DNA from: Candidatus Microsaccharimonas sossegonensis
Lineage (GTDB): Bacteria; Patescibacteriota; Saccharimonadia; Saccharimonadales; Saccharimonadaceae
Assembly (NCBI GenBank): GCA_004100325.1
Contig: SCKX01000001.1
Coordinates: 62,001-126,000, forward strand
Direction: 5' to 3'
DNA: 64,000 nt
The notes below the pieces were generated by a model that was not told where the DNA came from, made no database searches, and worked only from the letters and a program-made list of their open reading frames with translations. Below, piece after piece: positions 24,806 to 31,861 of this stretch (its first letter is position 1; each line of letters opens with the position of its first letter). Both the position numbers and the translations under genes were made by a program.

Positions 24806-24882
24806 TGGTACCCCGGGCAGGATTCGAACCTGCGACCTTAGGCTTAGAAGTCCTCTGCTCTTGTCCACTGAGCTACCGGGGC
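24806..24882 (-). tRNA. tRNA-Arg (anticodon TCT) with a weak anticodon stem
   Basis: Acceptor GCCCCGG/CCGGGGT (G1-U72 wobble), D arm GCTC/GAGC, T arm GCAGG/CCTGC with TTCGAAT, and encoded CCA (24806-24808) are all regular. The anticodon loop CTTCTAA gives TCT, reading AGA. The anticodon stem is GAGGA opposite GCCTA, so only the three middle pairs are Watson-Crick, while 27-43 (G-A) and 31-39 (A-G) are mismatched. A TATAAT lies just upstream on the minus strand. Confidence 0.93.
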
Positions 24883-24999
24883 GTGAGTGTCATTATAGCT
24901 TAGGATTGTCTAAAAAACGATTGTTCGTGGTGGGCGATCAATGTACTTATTAGCACAACCATCTTACACGGAACAGCATAAGATTTCCTTTACTATCTA

Positions 25000-25710
25000 T
25001 CAAATGCCAATGCCCATCATCGACAATTTACTCTTCGCGAAAGGATTAGGAGCATTAATTGAAAGCACCAGGTCGTTGCGATTGTCCCTCGTTGAGTCGT
25101 TCGTCACAGTTGGAGCCCATGACGTGGCAGTCGTGTCTTCGGAAAATGCGGATGAATACCAAAGTCCCGTCGTCAGTGTTCCACCGGCAGTGTCTGTATA
25201 TATATCGAGCATTTCGGATGCCAGTGGTCCGGTTCCAGGACCCCACGTACAGTTTGAATAACCATAACCAGCAGGATAATCATTACACTGCACTGCAATA
25301 AGCAGTGTATGGGTCCCAGGCGTTAGCGTGGGCATCGTTGATACGGTATTGTAGTCAATTTGCGTTGCTGACGTATCGTAGGCTGACGTGGACGAAAACT
25401 CAAATATCTCTACAACCATTGGCATATTTGTAACGGCGTGTGTCACCGAAAAGGTGTCCGCACCGGCGGCGGATCGAGTGATGACTCGTAATGTCCCGTT
25501 AGCGGTATTAGCTCCAACAACTTGAGATGTCCATCCGGTGGGGGTTGGGTTCGTTGACGGTCCCCAAAGAATCGCAAGCAGATAATTACCACTTTTGCGA
25601 CTGAATACTGCCCCAGAAATTAGGTTGGTCGTCGTGTTCGGATTGACCGTGTGAGACGTAGTGCCGTTTCGTGGCAGAAGGAAAGCCGCACGTTGAAGCC
25701 ATACACTCAT
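25000..25710 (-). CDS. Beta-rich protein, possibly tail-fibre-like, function unknown
   Basis: The 236-residue protein has no signal peptide or membrane helix. It is rich in Thr, Ser, Asn and Trp with alternating beta-strand patterns (for example GNYLLAILWG, TLRVITRSAAGADTFSVTHA, GTHTLLIAVQC). The style is that of phage or tailocin structural proteins and surface lectins, but no family could be named. It lies next to two tail-fibre-like genes on the other strand, between tRNA-Arg and the tRNA-tail repeats, so it may belong to the same accessory block. Confidence 0.55.
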   Translation of the reverse strand: MSVWLQRAAFLLPRNGTTSHTVNPNTTTNLISGAVFSRKSGNYLLAILWGPSTNPTPTGWTSQVVGANTANGTLRVITRSAAGADTFSVTHAVTNMPMVVEIFEFSSTSAYDTSATQIDYNTVSTMPTLTPGTHTLLIAVQCNDYPAGYGYSNCTWGPGTGPLASEMLDIYTDTAGGTLTTGLWYSSAFSEDTTATSWAPTVTNDSTRDNRNDLVLSINAPNPFAKSKLSMMGIGI

Positions 25711-26054
25711 GGGAATAAGCTTAATTTACAGAGGTTTATAACGGTTGCGACCATACTATGATCATACCACGAAGACTTTTTTTATAGGAATTGTCACTCT
25801 TTGTGCGTCAACAGGCCAAAAAAATGATTCAAGAACTCTTTAGCCACAGTTTTTACTCGCCAATTTTGACAATAGCCAACACATAGCTATCGATTCATTG
25901 CAAAGTGCCTTAGTTTAGCTTATAATTATAATAAAGTGCTTTAAAAGCTGTAAAAACAACTATATATATAATGAATAAGTCAACAATCCATACATTTAGG
26001 AAATGCACGCATACGTCATGGGCTTTTTTCGTAACGAAAAGGTACGATAGTTAA
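25711..26054. other. 344-base intergenic region with a possible 27-codon leader ORF
   Basis: This is an AT-rich divergent region between the genes at 25710 and 26055. A short plus-strand frame from the ATG at 25971 (27 codons, beginning MNKSTIHTFRKC) ends in TAA at 26052-26054, directly touching the next ATG. It has a TATATATA run in front but no Shine-Dalgarno, so it may be chance. Nothing else is seen. Confidence 0.35.
26043..26048 (+). promoter_or_regulatory. -10-like TACGAT before the gene at 26055
   Basis: TACGAT ends six bases before the ATG, matching the leaderless spacing seen elsewhere. The hexamer itself is only a moderate match, and no -35 is clear. Confidence 0.35.
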
Positions 26055-26561
26055 ATGGCCGAACAACGACTGCCAATAGTGAACGGTGATGACGGTCAAT
26101 GGGGTGACATACTTAACCAGTTCCTTCAGAAAGAACATTATAATACTGGCACAAACCTTCCTGCCAACGGTGGGCATAAAACCATAACAGTTCGTGCAGG
26201 TACGACAGGCGCTGGATCAGCGCCTTTAAAGTTCACCTCTGGGTCATTGATGACCGTAGCCGAAGTTGGGGCAGTTGAGTTTGATACTGACAGGCTTTAT
26301 ATTACGCAAACAACTGGTACGACACGTAAGGTAATCGCAGCGTTCGATGATGCATCTGGTGCTACCGGTGATGTGTATTATCGTAATAACGGTGGTCATT
26401 TTACACGACTGCCTATTGGTACTAATAATTATGTACTCACTGTTGCCTCGGGATTACCCACCTGGTAAGCTGTAGCATCTGGCGGGGTAGACAATTTAGA
26501 TGGTGGTGTTGCTTCAAGTATGTACGGCGGGGCAATCAAAATTGACGGAGGAGCTGCATAA
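26055..26561 (+). pseudogene. Tail-fibre-like protein interrupted by an in-frame TAA
   Basis: The first 137 codons (MAEQRLPIVNGDDGQWGDIL...) end at TAA 26466-26468 after LPTW. The same frame continues without another stop for 30 codons (AVASGGVDNLDGGVASSMYG, ending KIDGGAA). It reaches a TAA at 26559-26561 that overlaps the next ATG by one base, the same TAATG coupling used by other operons here. The downstream part has clear coding character (Asp-Gly-Gly repeats) and the N-terminal part resembles phage tail or surface-repeat proteins. The simplest reading is a recent nonsense change (for example CAA to TAA). Readthrough or a sequencing difference cannot be excluded. Confidence 0.7.
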
Positions 26562-27568
26562 TGGCAACACTACTCCAATTCAGAAGAGACACTTCAGCAA
26601 ACTGGACGTCTGTTAACCCTATTCTGGCTGATGGCGAATTAGGATTAGAAACAGATACGTCTGCGTATAAGATAGGTAATGGCGTTGACAACTGGAATAC
26701 ATTGATTTATCGCCAACTATCTCCTCAAGTACAAACACTTCTGATGAGTGCCCAAGCAAGCGACCCTTCACCTCCAGGTGCCAATAGTCTATTATTTTAC
26801 GGTAAAAGTATCGGTGGTAGATCAATGCCAAAGTTCGTCGGTCCCTCTGGTCTAGATACAATTCTTCAGCCTGCACTTTTTGGTAATGGTATTCAAATGT
26901 TATCACCAAATACAACGACAACATTTAATACAATTGGTATGCCCTCGCCGACTGTTGTCGGAACCCTATCTCACCCCGTACTTACTTCAGGCTCACTAAG
27001 AACTCAAACACGAAGGGGGATTGTCACATCGGCCGCAACTGCCAACTCCGCCTCAGAGTTGCGACAAGTAGCAGCGGCATGTTGGCGCGGTGATACGCCA
27101 GGTCAAGGAGGGTTTTTCATGACAACTCGATTTGCGATGAGTACGGCTGTTGCCAACCAAAGAACAGCGATCGGCCTCTTTAGTACGACGGCTGCAATCT
27201 CCACAACCCAGTCTCCATCCTCTCTCACTAGTTGTATATTTGTTGGTAACGACAGCACAGATACCACCTTGCAACTTATGTATAACGACGCGTCAGGGAC
27301 ATGCTCAAAAATAAATCTTGGCACTGATTTTCCATCAAACAATACGTCTGCCATGTACGAGCTAATTCTGTTCGCAGCGCCTAATTCCACCCAAGTTGAA
27401 TACCGAGTTTTACGCCAAGATGTCGCTGCCGTAGCATCTGGAACCCTCACCACCGACCTACCACCAACAACGACATTCTTAGCCTGGCATGCGTATATGA
27501 ATAACGGCGGAACGGCATCATCGGTTGTATTAGAAATTATGCGCTACTACCTCGAAACAGACTATTAA
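26561..27568 (+). CDS. Tail-fibre-like protein with Mtd-type N-terminal domain
   Basis: The 335-residue protein starts with LLQFRRDTSANWTSVNPILA, then DGELGLETDTSAYKIGNG and WNTL, the N-terminal module found in phage tail fibres and in the major tropism determinant (Mtd). The remaining ~270 residues are beta-rich with little similarity by eye, and the C-terminus (FLAWHAYMNNGGTASSVVLEIMRYYLETDY) looks like a lectin or jelly-roll strand set. No signal peptide is present. It is coupled to the disrupted gene before it. A phage remnant or a co-opted contractile or adhesive fibre are both possible; no other phage structural gene is in the window. Confidence 0.75.
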   Translation: MATLLQFRRDTSANWTSVNPILADGELGLETDTSAYKIGNGVDNWNTLIYRQLSPQVQTLLMSAQASDPSPPGANSLLFYGKSIGGRSMPKFVGPSGLDTILQPALFGNGIQMLSPNTTTTFNTIGMPSPTVVGTLSHPVLTSGSLRTQTRRGIVTSAATANSASELRQVAAACWRGDTPGQGGFFMTTRFAMSTAVANQRTAIGLFSTTAAISTTQSPSSLTSCIFVGNDSTDTTLQLMYNDASGTCSKINLGTDFPSNNTSAMYELILFAAPNSTQVEYRVLRQDVAAVASGTLTTDLPPTTTFLAWHAYMNNGGTASSVVLEIMRYYLETDY

Positions 27569-27616
27569 ATTTTTAAACTAGTTGCCGAAGAAATAGGCCT
27601 GTAATACTTGGTAAAA

Positions 27617-27680
27617 GACGTCAGAAAGTTCTGACGTCCCTTAAAAATATTTGGTGCAGGATTCTCTACGAAGCAAGAAC
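27617..27680. repeat. Repeat R1: palindrome plus tRNA-like 3' tail
   Basis: A perfect 22-base palindrome (GACGTCAGAA-AG-TTCTGACGTC, 27617-27638) is followed by TTGGTGCAGGATTCTC (from 27651). On the minus strand this reads as a tRNA 3' end (GAGAATCC-TGCACCA) followed by a hairpin. It matches R2 (28637-28695) in the palindrome core and over GTTCTT-x-C-x-TCGT-x-GAGAATCC of the tail. Confidence 0.7.
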
Positions 27681-27722
27681 CGCACTTCCTATTCAATAAA
27701 TAAAAGAATAAAAATTGATTAA

Positions 27723-28157
27723 CTATAACTGCACTGCTGGTCGCACTTCTTCCAGTGACACATTGGCTTTAATGATCGCTGGGTCACCATAGTGACGAGA
27801 CCTCTTAATACGGCCATTTTCTATTTTACAAACAAGCACATATGGCCAGACTACTTTTTTATCGCCTCTAGGCTCAATTTCGGCCAACTCAACAAATACC
27901 GTTTGAGTCGTTTTGTCGGCCGCAATGTTCCAAATATGAAATTCTCGCCCTTCGACCTCGTACGCTTCTTCTAGGTTAACGGGTACGTCACCCCCTGCGA
28001 AAATTGGGAAAGTTGTTCCGTTTGATATGAACATTCCTCGTTGTTCGAAGTCATCAGTAATAAGTGTTTTTCCGAAAGAAACATTATTAGTACGTTCTGC
28101 TTCAAACGAGTCAGTCACGATTTTCATAAGTTCGTCAGGTAAATATTTTTTTGTCAT
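27723..28157 (-). CDS. NTF2/SnoaL-like small protein
   Basis: The 144-residue protein has the order expected of the NTF2-like cone fold: helices at 6-20, then strands with VFVELAEIEPRGDKKVVWPY and VCKIENGRIKRSRHYGDPA, where the closing strand with K/R-x-R-x-Y-x-D is typical. Members range from isomerases to small ligand-binding proteins, so no reaction is proposed. It lies between repeats R1 and R2 with the truncated ABC-F gene, in a stretch that looks like an old insertion. No operon partner is intact. Confidence 0.6.
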   Translation of the reverse strand: MTKKYLPDELMKIVTDSFEAERTNNVSFGKTLITDDFEQRGMFISNGTTFPIFAGGDVPVNLEEAYEVEGREFHIWNIAADKTTQTVFVELAEIEPRGDKKVVWPYVLVCKIENGRIKRSRHYGDPAIIKANVSLEEVRPAVQL

Positions 28158-28230
28158 TGCATTAATGATGCTACATCTAGCATTTTCTTAAAATATGTGA
28201 TATAAATTTATTATTTTAAGGAGTTAAATA

Positions 28231-28305
28231 ATGAATAACGAAGAAATCATACGAAAAAGCCCTGATGTTGAAACGTTTTTACAAAAGCTTGTCGTGCTTG
28301 CTTAA
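28231..28305 (+). CDS. Short or truncated ORF with perfect Shine-Dalgarno
   Basis: A 24-codon frame (MNNEEIIRKSPDVETFLQKL and four more) starts seven bases after AAGGAG (28218-28223). It has a TG-T-GATATAAAT-like -10 about 20 bases further up. These are full expression signals for such a short frame. Its end overlaps the 3' end of the truncated ABC-F gene on the other strand. It may be the surviving 5' end of a gene cut at the same break that removed the rest of the ABC-F gene, or a genuine micropeptide. Confidence 0.4.
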   Translation: MNNEEIIRKSPDVETFLQKLVVLA

Positions 28306-28588
28306 AACCAGTCACAGATTCTAAAAAGTCAAAGACACTGACATCATGCCACGATTCGAGACTTTGTGGCATAAACCCCACTTCAACATTGTCACGTACG
28401 ACCATTCCATGATTCGGAAGGACTTGACCCGCCATAGCCCGGAGAAGTGTCGTCTTGCCAGCACCATTCTTCCCAACCAATCCTATACGATCTTTTTTAT
28501 TAACTGAAAAAGAGACGTTTCGAAAGACTTCGTGACCGTCGACTTCATATCCAAGATCTTTAACATGTAACAAGCTACAATACTCCAT
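28247..28588 (-). pseudogene. Truncated ABC-F ATPase (N-terminal ~100 residues)
   Basis: The frame opens with LLHVKDLGYEVDGHEVFRN and has an intact Walker A (GLVGKNGAGKTT) and Q-loop region (VEVGFMPQS), diagnostic of ABC-F translation or antibiotic-resistance ATPases. It stops after 113 residues, while the family has about 500-650 with two ATPase domains, and lacks signature motif and Walker B. The last ~15 residues (ARQAFVKTFQHQGFFV) do not look like ABC-F and overlap another ORF, marking a deletion junction. A strong promoter (TG-G-TATAAT) is still present upstream. Confidence 0.85.
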
Positions 28589-28616
28589 CGCCCCTCAAGG
28601 TTGACGTTATAGTGTA

Positions 28617-28625
28617 ATTATACCA
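28617..28625 (-). promoter_or_regulatory. Extended -10 of the truncated ABC-F gene
   Basis: On the minus strand TG-G-TATAAT stands 28 bases before the ATG at 28588, and GAGGGG lies just ahead of that ATG. It is one of the best promoter matches in the window although its gene is broken. Confidence 0.6.
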
Positions 28626-28695
28626 TAACAAAAACGGTCAGAAAAATTCTGACGTCTCGAATGGTTCATTTGGTGCGGGATTCTCAACGATGTAA
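28626..28695. repeat. Repeat R2: hairpin plus tRNA-like 3' tail
   Basis: AACAAAAACGGTCAGAA-AAA-TTCTGAC (28627-28653) is followed after about 17 bases by TTGGTGCGGGATTCTC (from 28670). On the minus strand this is a tRNA tail (GAGAATCCCGCACCA), a short spacer, then a hairpin with a T-rich tail, that is, the 3' end and terminator of a tRNA gene whose body is missing. It shares AACAAAAACGG and the tail with R3 and the hairpin core with R1. An ATG inside it (28661) opens the long frame of the next gene but is not the likely start. Confidence 0.75.
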
Positions 28696-28789
28696 GAACT
28701 ATTCTGATCGAAACGACTTAGATAAATACCCCGAATGTAGACTTGACATATCAATTATAAGTATGTTAAGAGGCCGCGGACTGGAAACG

Positions 28790-30160
28790 ATGCCTATGCA
28801 GGCTCTTATAGACCCTACTGAGTGGGTTATTCTCAATGAAAAAACACAGGAGGTCGCAGTTGATTACCCAGACATTACTGGCGTACTTGCCATCGGTTCA
28901 CTAATCCAGACCTTCCGACCGCCATCTAGCTTCCTGGAGCAACGTCTTCCTGGTCAACTAGGTGCGGCTTATGACTCTGTACGCAATGCTGGGCGTCGCA
29001 AGCTATTCCCTGGCCCGAAAAGTGATTTAGATGTATGGGTGGCTTTAAAAGACACTCCTGAATCATCCGCCGCTGAGTATGCTGTCAGCACCGCTGGTAT
29101 TAGCTTGGTAGAAGAATTGGCTAACCATAGTGTTGAACGTGGCACTCGTCAATGGCACAACAAAAAAAGAGCTGCTTTCGGCGGCTACTACAAACGACCA
29201 GAGTTCTATAGTGCCAGGTTTGCAGAGGCTAACCCTCAGGATGCCCCATGGATGGCCGCTAACTTCAAACAACATTTGGAATCGGCTATCTTAGAAAACA
29301 TTCCTGACTTTGTCGAAAGAGTGAACAGGTTTACTTCTAAGACTATTCCTGGTGACTTCTTAGAGATTCGCGCATACCCAGAATCTGTCTATAACTTACG
29401 CCCAGATCAGATAATGATGGAGGGCGATATTCTAGACCGTGAACCGTTCCCTCAAATCGGTGATGACCAATGGATATCACCAGACCACTCTTCGTCTATT
29501 TTGTACTCCAGCGGTAAAAGTACCATCTATCCTTTCCGCCTTGATGGACGTATCGTCGGTGAGGATATGAATCGTTATATTCTGTCACGTGCTGAACGGG
29601 GATTAGCCCAAAGAGCGGTCGGCGCCATATTGTTGAAACCTGATGCCCTTGATAGAAATCAAGTCGGCGCCATAAAGGAAATCCTACGATCTAAAATTGC
29701 TAAATTTGGTGGTAAGATTGTCTTTGAGAAACTCTTAAGCGGATTAACTTACAGTCAAGTGGTTGAAGTATACCCTGCGCTGTCAGGCGAAGATCTTCGT
29801 GACGCCGCCGAATACTTAGCTAGTGGGCCAAACCTGGGTATTGTCATCGAGGGACCACTTGACGAAGCCGGGGTAATGAAAGAAATCAACGAAATCAAAG
29901 GGCCTCGAGTTGGAGATCGCTCTATAGAGAGGCTCTTGAAGGGACGGATCACTGATGGAACTTTGCGCGATCTACTACCCGTACCGGGAGACGAGAGTCT
30001 ATATCAAGATTTGCTACCTACAATTCTAGAGCGAAAAACCAACCCAGACGTCAGATTCACCAAGAATCAGTATGTCTATTATTCACGCAACCTGGTACAC
30101 TCACCAGACAACGCTATCGAGTTAAGAGGCTTGCTCAACGCCATAGGCTATAGTAGATAA
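28790..30160 (+). CDS. Fusion of a nucleotidyltransferase-like domain and an NDP-kinase-like domain
   Basis: Starting at 28790 the protein has 456 residues. The N-terminal part has the Pol-beta NTase pattern: GS at 36-37 (VLAIGS) and, after a long insertion, SDLDVWV with two aspartates (79, 81). The C-terminal part (about 278-456) resembles nucleoside diphosphate kinase: LLKPDA (K283), an SGP turn, and NLVHSPDN, where H437 matches the phospho-histidine of the NDK HGSDS motif; about 45 extra residues lie between. A consensus TTGACA (28743-28748) and TG-T-TAAGAG 18 bases later precede the start; ATGs at 28763 and 28661 are alternatives. It leads a three-gene operon. Substrate unknown. Confidence 0.78.
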   Translation: MPMQALIDPTEWVILNEKTQEVAVDYPDITGVLAIGSLIQTFRPPSSFLEQRLPGQLGAAYDSVRNAGRRKLFPGPKSDLDVWVALKDTPESSAAEYAVSTAGISLVEELANHSVERGTRQWHNKKRAAFGGYYKRPEFYSARFAEANPQDAPWMAANFKQHLESAILENIPDFVERVNRFTSKTIPGDFLEIRAYPESVYNLRPDQIMMEGDILDREPFPQIGDDQWISPDHSSSILYSSGKSTIYPFRLDGRIVGEDMNRYILSRAERGLAQRAVGAILLKPDALDRNQVGAIKEILRSKIAKFGGKIVFEKLLSGLTYSQVVEVYPALSGEDLRDAAEYLASGPNLGIVIEGPLDEAGVMKEINEIKGPRVGDRSIERLLKGRITDGTLRDLLPVPGDESLYQDLLPTILERKTNPDVRFTKNQYVYYSRNLVHSPDNAIELRGLLNAIGYSR

Positions 30161-30163
30161 TAT

Positions 30164-30682
30164 ATGTTCATCAAAATCCTTAACGACCAGAACGAAGAAA
30201 TCGGTTGTATCAGTCGAGAATATGTTGTTCCCATGGGTCTTCGCCATCAGATTGGCAGAGTTATAATCTATTCTCGTAATAATCAATCGGTTCTACTTCA
30301 ACAGCGTAGTCTTAATAAATCAACCATGCCAGGCGCATGGGATACCAGTTCCAGTGGCCATGTAGACGCCCACGAAGACGCTTTTGAAGGTGCTATCCGC
30401 GAGTTAAAAGAGGAGATTGGCGTCTACGCTTCGGGACTAGAATTGCAATATGTTGGTGAGTACAGTACCTACGAAAAGCTTGATGATGGAGTCCTAAATC
30501 GACAAACTGTCATATATGCATTACTCATAGATGACCCGGCTGAAATATCTTTTACGGTTGATCCTATTGAACTCGAGACTATCGACTGGATAGAAATTTC
30601 TAAAATCGACGACCTTGGAGACAAAGTGACAAAAGGCGCTAAACAGGCCCTATCAATCTTCTCTGACTGGATCAAAGGATAG
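30164..30682 (+). CDS. NUDIX hydrolase (isopentenyl-diphosphate isomerase-like subfamily)
   Basis: The 172-residue protein has a complete Nudix box, G-x5-E-x7-REL-x-EE-x-GV: it starts with GHVDAHE (about residue 65) and ends RELKEEIGV. The preceding MPGAWDTSSSGHVD and QQRSLNKSTMPGAW stretches are typical of the IDI-like/YfcD NUDIX group. Such enzymes hydrolyse nucleoside or sugar diphosphates. The gene starts three bases after the NTase-NDK fusion and ends 13 bases before the MYG1-like gene, so the three products are made together. A role in removing or editing the nucleotide product of the first enzyme is inferred. Confidence 0.92.
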   Translation: MFIKILNDQNEEIGCISREYVVPMGLRHQIGRVIIYSRNNQSVLLQQRSLNKSTMPGAWDTSSSGHVDAHEDAFEGAIRELKEEIGVYASGLELQYVGEYSTYEKLDDGVLNRQTVIYALLIDDPAEISFTVDPIELETIDWIEISKIDDLGDKVTKGAKQALSIFSDWIKG

Positions 30683-30695
30683 GACTAGTAAGGAG

Positions 30696-31559
30696 ATGAT
30701 TATCGCTACCCATGACGGTCCTTTTCATGCAGATGATGTTTTTGGTTACGTGTTACTAAAAAGTATTTTTCCAACCGCTGATTTTATACGAACCAGAGAT
30801 ACCGACAAGTTAGCTAAAGCTGACATAGTGTTTGATGTTGGTGGCGTGCAAGACTCTACTATGAAGCGTTTTGATCATCATGTACTATCAGCAGCAAAGA
30901 GACCAAATGGGGTAATCTACTCTGCTTTTGGTCTGCTTTGGAATGAATACGGCCTCCAATATTGTGATAATGATAAAGATATTCACCGACGTATCGACAA
31001 AGAACTAGTTGAGTTTATTGATGCGGACGACAACGGGCAGATAATCGACACCCGCACCGACTTCCAAGCTCTCCGTCCTACTATAGATGAGTTAGTAAGG
31101 TCTTTTAATCCAGTCGATGCCGAAAGCTTTGACGAACAATTCATCAAAGCTTCCGACATTGCCGAACAAATCCTTGAACGATTCAAGAAAACTATCTTAT
31201 CAAAGTTGACCATAGAAAAATCAGTTATTAAAAGTTTTGAACTATCGAGCAACAAATCTTTCATCTCAATCGACCACTACATACCAGTGCACGACCTTAG
31301 AGACATGCCAGGCCAGTTACTCTATATAGTTTGCCAAGAAAAGCCTGACAGGTGGCTTTTATGCACCGTTCAAAATAACAATTCATTCGATAGTTTGCGT
31401 AAACCCCTGCCGCAGAGCTGGGGAGGGTTATCCGGCGAGGATTTCGTCCGAGAAACCGGAGTAGAGGATGTTCAATCTTGTCACATAAATAGGTTTATAG
31501 CCGTGACATACACCGAGCAAGCCGCTCTCGAACTAGCCCGCCAAGCTACGCAAATATAA
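30696..31559 (+). CDS. MYG1-family (UPF0160) DHH-like phosphoesterase/exonuclease
   Basis: The 287-residue protein has the MYG1 signatures: THDGPFHADDVFG at the N-terminus, VFDVGG followed by FDHH, and EFIDADDNGQ. These Asp/His residues form the metal site of DHH-superfamily phosphoesterases. The C-terminus keeps QSCHINRFIA, equivalent to the family's H-x-N/R-F-I motif. Eukaryotic MYG1 is a 3'-5' RNA exonuclease of mitochondria and nucleolus; bacterial homologues are little studied. AGGAG stands just before the ATG (30691-30695 region). Last gene of the operon, followed by repeat R3. Confidence 0.9.
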   Translation: MIIATHDGPFHADDVFGYVLLKSIFPTADFIRTRDTDKLAKADIVFDVGGVQDSTMKRFDHHVLSAAKRPNGVIYSAFGLLWNEYGLQYCDNDKDIHRRIDKELVEFIDADDNGQIIDTRTDFQALRPTIDELVRSFNPVDAESFDEQFIKASDIAEQILERFKKTILSKLTIEKSVIKSFELSSNKSFISIDHYIPVHDLRDMPGQLLYIVCQEKPDRWLLCTVQNNNSFDSLRKPLPQSWGGLSGEDFVRETGVEDVQSCHINRFIAVTYTEQAALELARQATQI

Positions 31560-31563
31560 TAAT

Positions 31564-31627
31564 AAACAAAAACGGCTAGAAAGTTCTAACTGTCTACATT
31601 GTTTTATCTGGTGCGGGCGGAGAGAAT
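31564..31627. repeat. Repeat R3: hairpin plus exact copy of the tRNA-Gly 3' end
   Basis: AACAAAAACGG and a short hairpin (TAGAA-AG-TTCTA, 31577-31588) are followed by a 19-base stretch at 31609-31627. That stretch is identical to 31787-31805, the 3' end of tRNA-Gly including CCA. In minus-strand sense it is tRNA tail, spacer, terminator. It is the att-like duplicate expected after insertion of foreign DNA into the 3' end of a tRNA gene. Confidence 0.8.
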
Positions 31628-31648
31628 ACTTCGTAACTTCGTCACATT

Positions 31649-31786
31649 CAGAAAAGTAAACTTTTCTGACTTGCTCCTTGTTTTCGAACTACTCATACAA
31701 TTCGCTAAAGCGAATTACGATGAGAGTTCGATCCTCAGTTCGAGAGCAAGAAAGAAAGTTGTATCAAAAGACACAACTTTCTTTCT
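31649..31786. repeat. Cluster of three hairpins between R3 and tRNA-Gly
   Basis: H1 is TCAGAAAAG-TAAA-CTTTTCTGA (31649-31670). H2 is a nested, 81-base structure (31670-31750): outer CTTGCTC/GAGCAAG, middle CGAACT/AGTTCG, inner AATTCGCT/AGCGAATT. H3 is a 15-pair hairpin (AAGAAAGAAAGTTGT with its complement, about 31749-31787) directly at the tRNA 3' end. Within H2, 31719-31736 (GATGAGAGTTCGATCCTC) repeats the tRNA-Gly T arm in the opposite orientation. Confidence 0.75.
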
Positions 31787-31861
31787 TGGTGCGGGCGGAG
31801 AGAATCGAACTCTCATCACATGCTTGGAAGGCACGTATATTAGCCATTATACGACGCCCGC
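31787..31861 (-). tRNA. tRNA-Gly (anticodon TCC)
   Basis: Acceptor GCGGGCG/CGCCCGC, D arm GTAT/ATAC, anticodon stem CGTGC/GCATG with loop CTTCCAA, and T arm GAGAG/CTCTC with TTCGATT are present. CCA is encoded (31787-31789). It reads GGA codons. Its 3' end is duplicated at 31609-31627, so it is the presumed integration site of the neighbouring island. Confidence 0.96.

Follow-up and report, generated by a model that had tools for sequence, protein, structure and literature searches.

A probable nucleotidyltransferase fused to a divergent NDK-like domain is encoded next to a NUDIX hydrolase in a tRNA-Gly hotspot of Candidatus Microsaccharimonas sossegonensis

The closest described counterpart of the genomic arrangement reported here is the CIME, a cis-mobilizable element that remains after tandem accretion at an integration site (PMC5704250). 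On the enzyme side, the nearest families are the NDP kinases (NDK), the Pol-beta-type nucleotidyltransferases (NTases), the NUDIX hydrolases and the MYG1 proteins. As presented in PMC11167044, which cites Grover 2019 on this point, MYG1 is reported to be a 3′-5′ RNA exonuclease for which the DHH motif is essential. Our search of open-licence papers turned up no account of an NTase-NDK fusion. Here, we compare with these systems a locus in a 64,000-nucleotide stretch of the Candidatus Microsaccharimonas sossegonensis genome (contig SCKX01000001.1, positions 62,001 to 126,000), called the window below.

A three-gene operon in a tRNA-Gly hotspot

The first-pass annotation had described three closely spaced genes coding for an NTase-NDK fusion, a NUDIX enzyme and a MYG1-like protein. 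Inspection of the open reading frames on the + strand confirmed this order and the spacing, with the fusion gene ending at 30160 and gaps of 3 and 13 bases.

28763 to 30160, + strand: NTase-NDK fusion gene, 465 aa (alternatively 456 aa from ATG 28790)
30164 to 30682, + strand: NUDIX hydrolase gene, 172 aa, box complete
30696 to 31559, + strand: MYG1/UPF0160 DHH-family phosphoesterase gene, 287 aa, outside the conserved unit

Alignment with an orthologue from genome G716 suggests ATG 28763 as the start of the fusion, giving a 465-residue protein in which the KPDA lysine is K292 and the candidate phosphohistidine is H446. Residues are numbered on this protein throughout. The earlier numbers for the same residues, K283 and H437, are reproduced when counting from ATG 28790. 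A TTGACA hexamer is indeed present in front of the operon, at 28743-28748. Its reading as a consensus promoter is however unsupported, because a promoter scan found no sigma-70-like -35/-10 pair at this hexamer, with no -10 partner detected, and because it sits only 14 bases ahead of the likelier start codon (28763). Both codon use and G+C content are ordinary, and no sign of foreign origin was seen in either.

The first-pass annotation had missed that the operon occupies a tRNA-Gly integration hotspot, where it is flanked on both sides by copies of the tRNA end and its terminator.

24806 to 24882, - strand: tRNA-Arg(TCT), conserved, marking the far end of the variable interval
27610 to 27680, - strand: third, more diverged copy of the terminator and tRNA end, bounding a neighbouring 1.0-kb unit
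28625 to 28690, - strand: left tRNA-Gly terminator hairpin and 3′ end, CCCGCACCA...GTCAGAATTTTTCTGAC, att-like scar
31559 to 31627, - strand: right tRNA-Gly terminator hairpin and 19 nt identical to the tRNA-Gly 3′ end, att-like scar
31787 to 31861, - strand: intact tRNA-Gly(TCC), presumed integration target, with its 3′ end facing the operon

Only the three cargo genes are found between the left and right repeats; an integrase is absent. A 178-bp segment precedes the intact tRNA-Gly. The stretch between the two tRNA-Gly ends (31628-31786) contains an inverted partial tRNA copy (31719-31736) and a strong hairpin (31747-31788). The neighbouring repeat-bounded unit (27649-28627) carries a truncated ABC ATPase of 113 aa (28247-28588) and a small gene (27723-28157) with a weak SnoaL-like match. 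Beside these cassettes, phage tail-type genes at 26055-27568, with an Mtd_N domain and a phrog_13925 match that covers the C-terminal half of that longer profile, are probably a prophage remnant.

Comparison with related genomes showed that tRNA-Gly adjoins tRNA-His in all nine close relatives examined and that the contents of the tRNA-Arg to tRNA-Gly interval differ largely among congeners. The interval measures 1.3-1.6 kb in G003, G005, G009 and G011, 2.4 kb in G015, 3.9 and 4.4 kb in G012 and G013, and 6.9 kb in the window (24806-31861). In G014, the gene for a large serine recombinase runs into the tRNA-Gly end, a hairpin terminator directly follows tRNA-Gly in G005 and G010, and NUDIX genes are frequent cargo of the hotspot (G010, G012 and G015). 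The repeat layout is the one seen when CIME-like segments without an integrase accrete in tandem (PMC5704250). Overall, the repeats and the variable interval are best explained if the fusion operon is mobile accessory cargo. The hotspot shows that a swap-prone cargo site is retained even in sub-megabase patescibacterial genomes.

The two halves of the fusion protein

Each half of the fusion was studied separately; both are encoded on the + strand.

Residues about 1-283, + strand: NTase part
28895 to 29380, + strand: NTase motif set G45-S46, S87-D88-L89-D90-x-W92 (29021-29038) and E201 within F-L-E-[IV]-R, unchanged across four proteins
Residues about 284-465, + strand: NDK part
29636 to 30109, + strand: NDK motif set K292 (KPDA), Y337, R402, N443 and H446, kept residues, with an insertion between R402 and N443

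The C-terminal half matches Pfam NDK at 5e-4, under the gathering score (20.4 and 24.0 bits versus 27). A profile built from five related sequences matched solved NDKs at 7e-6. Structure prediction, proposed with the first-pass annotation as a check on both folds of the protein, bore out that of the NDK-like domain. The AF2 model, computed from a 16-row alignment in which canonical NDKs were included, has a mean pLDDT of 78.8 with a core above 90, and its best Foldseek matches are NDKs throughout (1e-7). Both the active-site histidine of the N-x-x-H motif and the KPDA lysine are retained in the window protein (H446, K292) and in the G716 orthologue. In this subfamily, an insertion of 20-25 residues separates R402 from N443, ahead of the histidine motif, and the equivalents of the NDK phosphate-binding residues R88 and T94 are altered, with an invariant KG nearby. 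By fold and kept residues, the C-terminal half is thus a divergent NDK subfamily with predicted NTP:NDP phosphotransfer activity. Given the changed R88/T94 equivalents and one subfamily member, in G604, that is without the lysine, some members of the family may have modified or given up the NDK chemistry. The fusion NDK is an additional enzyme, since the host genome encodes a canonical NDK of its own, apart from the fusion (G000:C1:338408-338857).

The N-terminal half had been called Pol-beta-like. The GS...DLD motif on which this rested is conserved: GS, SDLDxW and a later F-x-E-x-R strand are invariant in four proteins, three of which are 33-57% identical to the window protein. E201 is a candidate for the third carboxylate. 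The Pol-beta fold itself, however, found no profile or confident model support. The window NTase half gave no Pfam match and no sequence match in the PDB, and an AF2 model from three sequences only reached a pLDDT of 41.5. Weak Pfam matches of two relatives encoded in G450 point to Pol-beta-type families. Both relatives also match Adenyl_cycl_N weakly (E 0.06-0.08). Among the E. coli NTases tested, the SDLDxWV strand matched CyaA only (hhalign 41; shuffled CyaA at most 22; GlnE, GlnD, CCA and unrelated proteins at most 21.4). This likeness spans about 20 columns around SDLDxWV and stops short of homology over the catalytic domain. In view of the conserved motifs, we consider it likely, rather than proved, that the N-terminal half is an NTase. 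The whole protein would then be a rare enzyme, with a nucleotide-charging half joined to a probable nucleotide-attaching half.

The fusion and its partners in other genomes

Using profile searches in 295 genomes of the order, a second fusion was found in G716, which belongs to another family; the two proteins are 57% identical over 462 aa. This orthologue shows that the NTase-like/NDK-like fusion is real and rules out an assembly artefact. No further NTase-NDK fusion was found in the genomes searched, so that the total is two, and no relative was found in viral contigs, phages or plasmids. Weak matches to the fusion protein in G014 and G135 were spurious, corresponding to LD-carboxypeptidase-like and enolase-like ORFs, and those in G024, G045, G119, G172 and G243 were ordinary NDKs.

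In G716, a NUDIX gene lies directly downstream of the fusion gene, with 18 bp from stop to start, and its product is 52% identical to the window NUDIX. Between the window and G716, pN is about 0.3 and pS about 0.8, the latter saturated, in the NTase half, the NDK half and the NUDIX protein. Comparison of the two sequences thus indicates that fusion and NUDIX are under purifying selection. The G716 unit sits at a different place, with no tRNA nearby. The same pair, kept in the same order in a second family, supports the functional coupling of fusion and NUDIX that had been proposed. A divergent neighbour of the G716 fusion (L120:5558-6775) gives a borderline score, 27.0 versus 27.1 bits, against the phage Mu Mom DNA-modification family.

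The two other proteins of the operon are what they had been taken to be. The NUDIX box, GHVDAHEDAFEGAIRELKEEIG, is complete (GX5EX7REUXEEXGU), with a Pfam NUDIX match at 8.7e-16. The nearest NCBIfam profiles are of the YfcD and IPP-isomerase types, every one below cut-off. The MYG1 protein has a full-length PF03690 match including the DHH motif (2.8e-55; 188.6 bits versus a threshold of 22.1).

MYG1 did not hold up as a constant partner. It is present in 14 of 380 genomes of the phylum and adjoins a NUDIX gene only in the window; within flanks of about 1.5 kb, none of the 13 other patescibacterial MYG1 genes does so, and their neighbour is mostly obg. It is also absent beside fusion and NUDIX in G716. 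A fixed third partner being ruled out by G716 and these 13 loci, the conserved unit consists of the fusion and NUDIX, and MYG1 may be a locus-specific passenger or an optional helper.

Stand-alone relatives of each half were also found. Those of the NDK half are present in G208 and G586, in both cases with a choline-kinase/APH-like gene after them, in G604, convergent with a NUDIX gene, and in G626. A separate NDK, in G073, bears an extra domain at its C-terminus. At L115:2248-3432, in another family of the order, an NDK is joined to an uncharacterised C-terminal domain with a HDARSHGDDIVIIDFGED stretch that looks kinase-like by eye only. The two stand-alone NTase relatives of G450, one of them upstream of an APH-like kinase gene, share a region that contains an APH-like kinase and a phosphodiesterase. 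This region starts with a tRNA-Arg onto which a recombinase-like gene extends. No att repeat was found at the far end of this island. Several proteins of the G450 cluster (L012:7963-9708 and L012:14426 to L013:2783) are without any Pfam match. A 177-aa gene following the G450 NTase was considered as a hidden NDK from a HIHAPD motif seen by eye, and was rejected as neither hhalign nor shuffled alignments supported it. The recurring company of phosphotransferases and nucleotidyltransferases fits, and does not prove, a pathway of small-molecule or nucleotide transfer.

Possible roles and comparison with known systems

Our tentative first choice is that the operon is mobile accessory cargo and that its products form a coupled nucleotidyl-transfer unit, with NDK supply, NTase transfer and NUDIX follow-up. 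We infer substrates, acceptor and direction of flow as follows. The NDK half would make a nucleoside triphosphate via phospho-His446. This may be a non-ordinary one, because the diphosphate-binding residues differ from those of the housekeeping NDK. The tethered NTase half, with DxD and E201 holding two metals, would move NMP from that triphosphate to an acceptor, freeing pyrophosphate. The NUDIX enzyme would hydrolyse a compound linked through a nucleoside diphosphate, whether product, precursor or faulty by-product. A nucleotide-charging enzyme fused to a probable attaching enzyme and kept with NUDIX in two families leads one to expect that a given NTP is supplied, through the tether, for a given transfer. 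The two active sites are well enough defined for mutagenesis, which allows a direct search for substrate and acceptor. It is conceivable, though unlikely, that the locus represents a horizontally moving, undescribed system by which ultrasmall bacteria transfer nucleotides, with the divergent NDK making a non-standard triphosphate for its own NTase half and NUDIX acting as a reversal or safety enzyme.

A role in anti-phage defence or self-protection, at which the first-pass annotation had hinted along with RNA repair, would have the fusion tag RNA, protein or an invader molecule and NUDIX, here with MYG1, reverse or clean up the tag, in the manner of NTase toxin-antitoxin or cyclic-nucleotide systems. 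The phage tail remnants at 26055-27568, the recombinase-bearing element of a congener, the Mom-like neighbour in G716 and the patchy distribution all agree with this. However, neither protein 1 nor MYG1 fits any PADLOC defence family, with NUDIX giving only a weak generic match, the unit contains no recognisable effector, sensor or antitoxin gene, and the tRNA-Gly hotspot holds cargo of all sorts; we regard defence as improbable. The genes might also be unrelated in function, piled up by repeated tRNA-Gly integration and sharing a transcript only. An accretion hotspot whose contents are mostly different in each relative, with MYG1 clearly inconstant and NUDIX genes common, would favour such a pile-up. 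The recurrence of fusion and NUDIX, in the same order, in another family and away from any tRNA makes it an unlikely account. A cyclase-like NTase half related to class I adenylate cyclase, with NDK keeping ATP/GTP charged and MYG1/NUDIX degrading a cyclic or oligomeric product, is very doubtful: the CyaA-specific SDLDxWV match and the weak Adenyl_cycl_N matches point towards it, but the likeness is limited to those 20 or so columns, GS and DxD are 43 residues apart in the fusion versus about 13 in CyaA, and no recognisable cNMP-binding effector is encoded nearby.

Under the preferred reading of a mobile nucleotidyl-transfer unit, the element is closest to a CIME (PMC5704250), with which it shares cargo without integrase between tandemly repeated target-tRNA 3′ ends; it differs in that its repeats have diverged. 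The MYG1 protein resembles MYG1/UPF0160 (PF03690) over its full length, DHH included, whereas the usual patescibacterial neighbours of that family are obg and others, not NUDIX or NTase genes. The NUDIX protein shares the full box and a similar N-terminal region with the YfcD and IPP-isomerase types, but scores below the equivalog cut-offs. Of the fusion, the N-terminal half has SDLDxWV in common with class I adenylate cyclase CyaA, and GS, DxD and a later conserved Glu with Pol-beta-type nucleotidyltransferases (PF01909/PF18765), from which it differs by long insertions between motifs and the lack of a significant profile match. The C-terminal half shares with NDK (PF00334; mimivirus NDK 2b8q and Pyrobaculum NDK 1xqi) the fold, the KPDA lysine, the tyrosine, the third-motif arginine, the asparagine and the active-site histidine. 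It is set apart by its score below the Pfam gathering threshold, the lost R88/T94 equivalents, the 20-25-residue insertion before the histidine motif, an RxLxP signature and the attached NTase-like domain.
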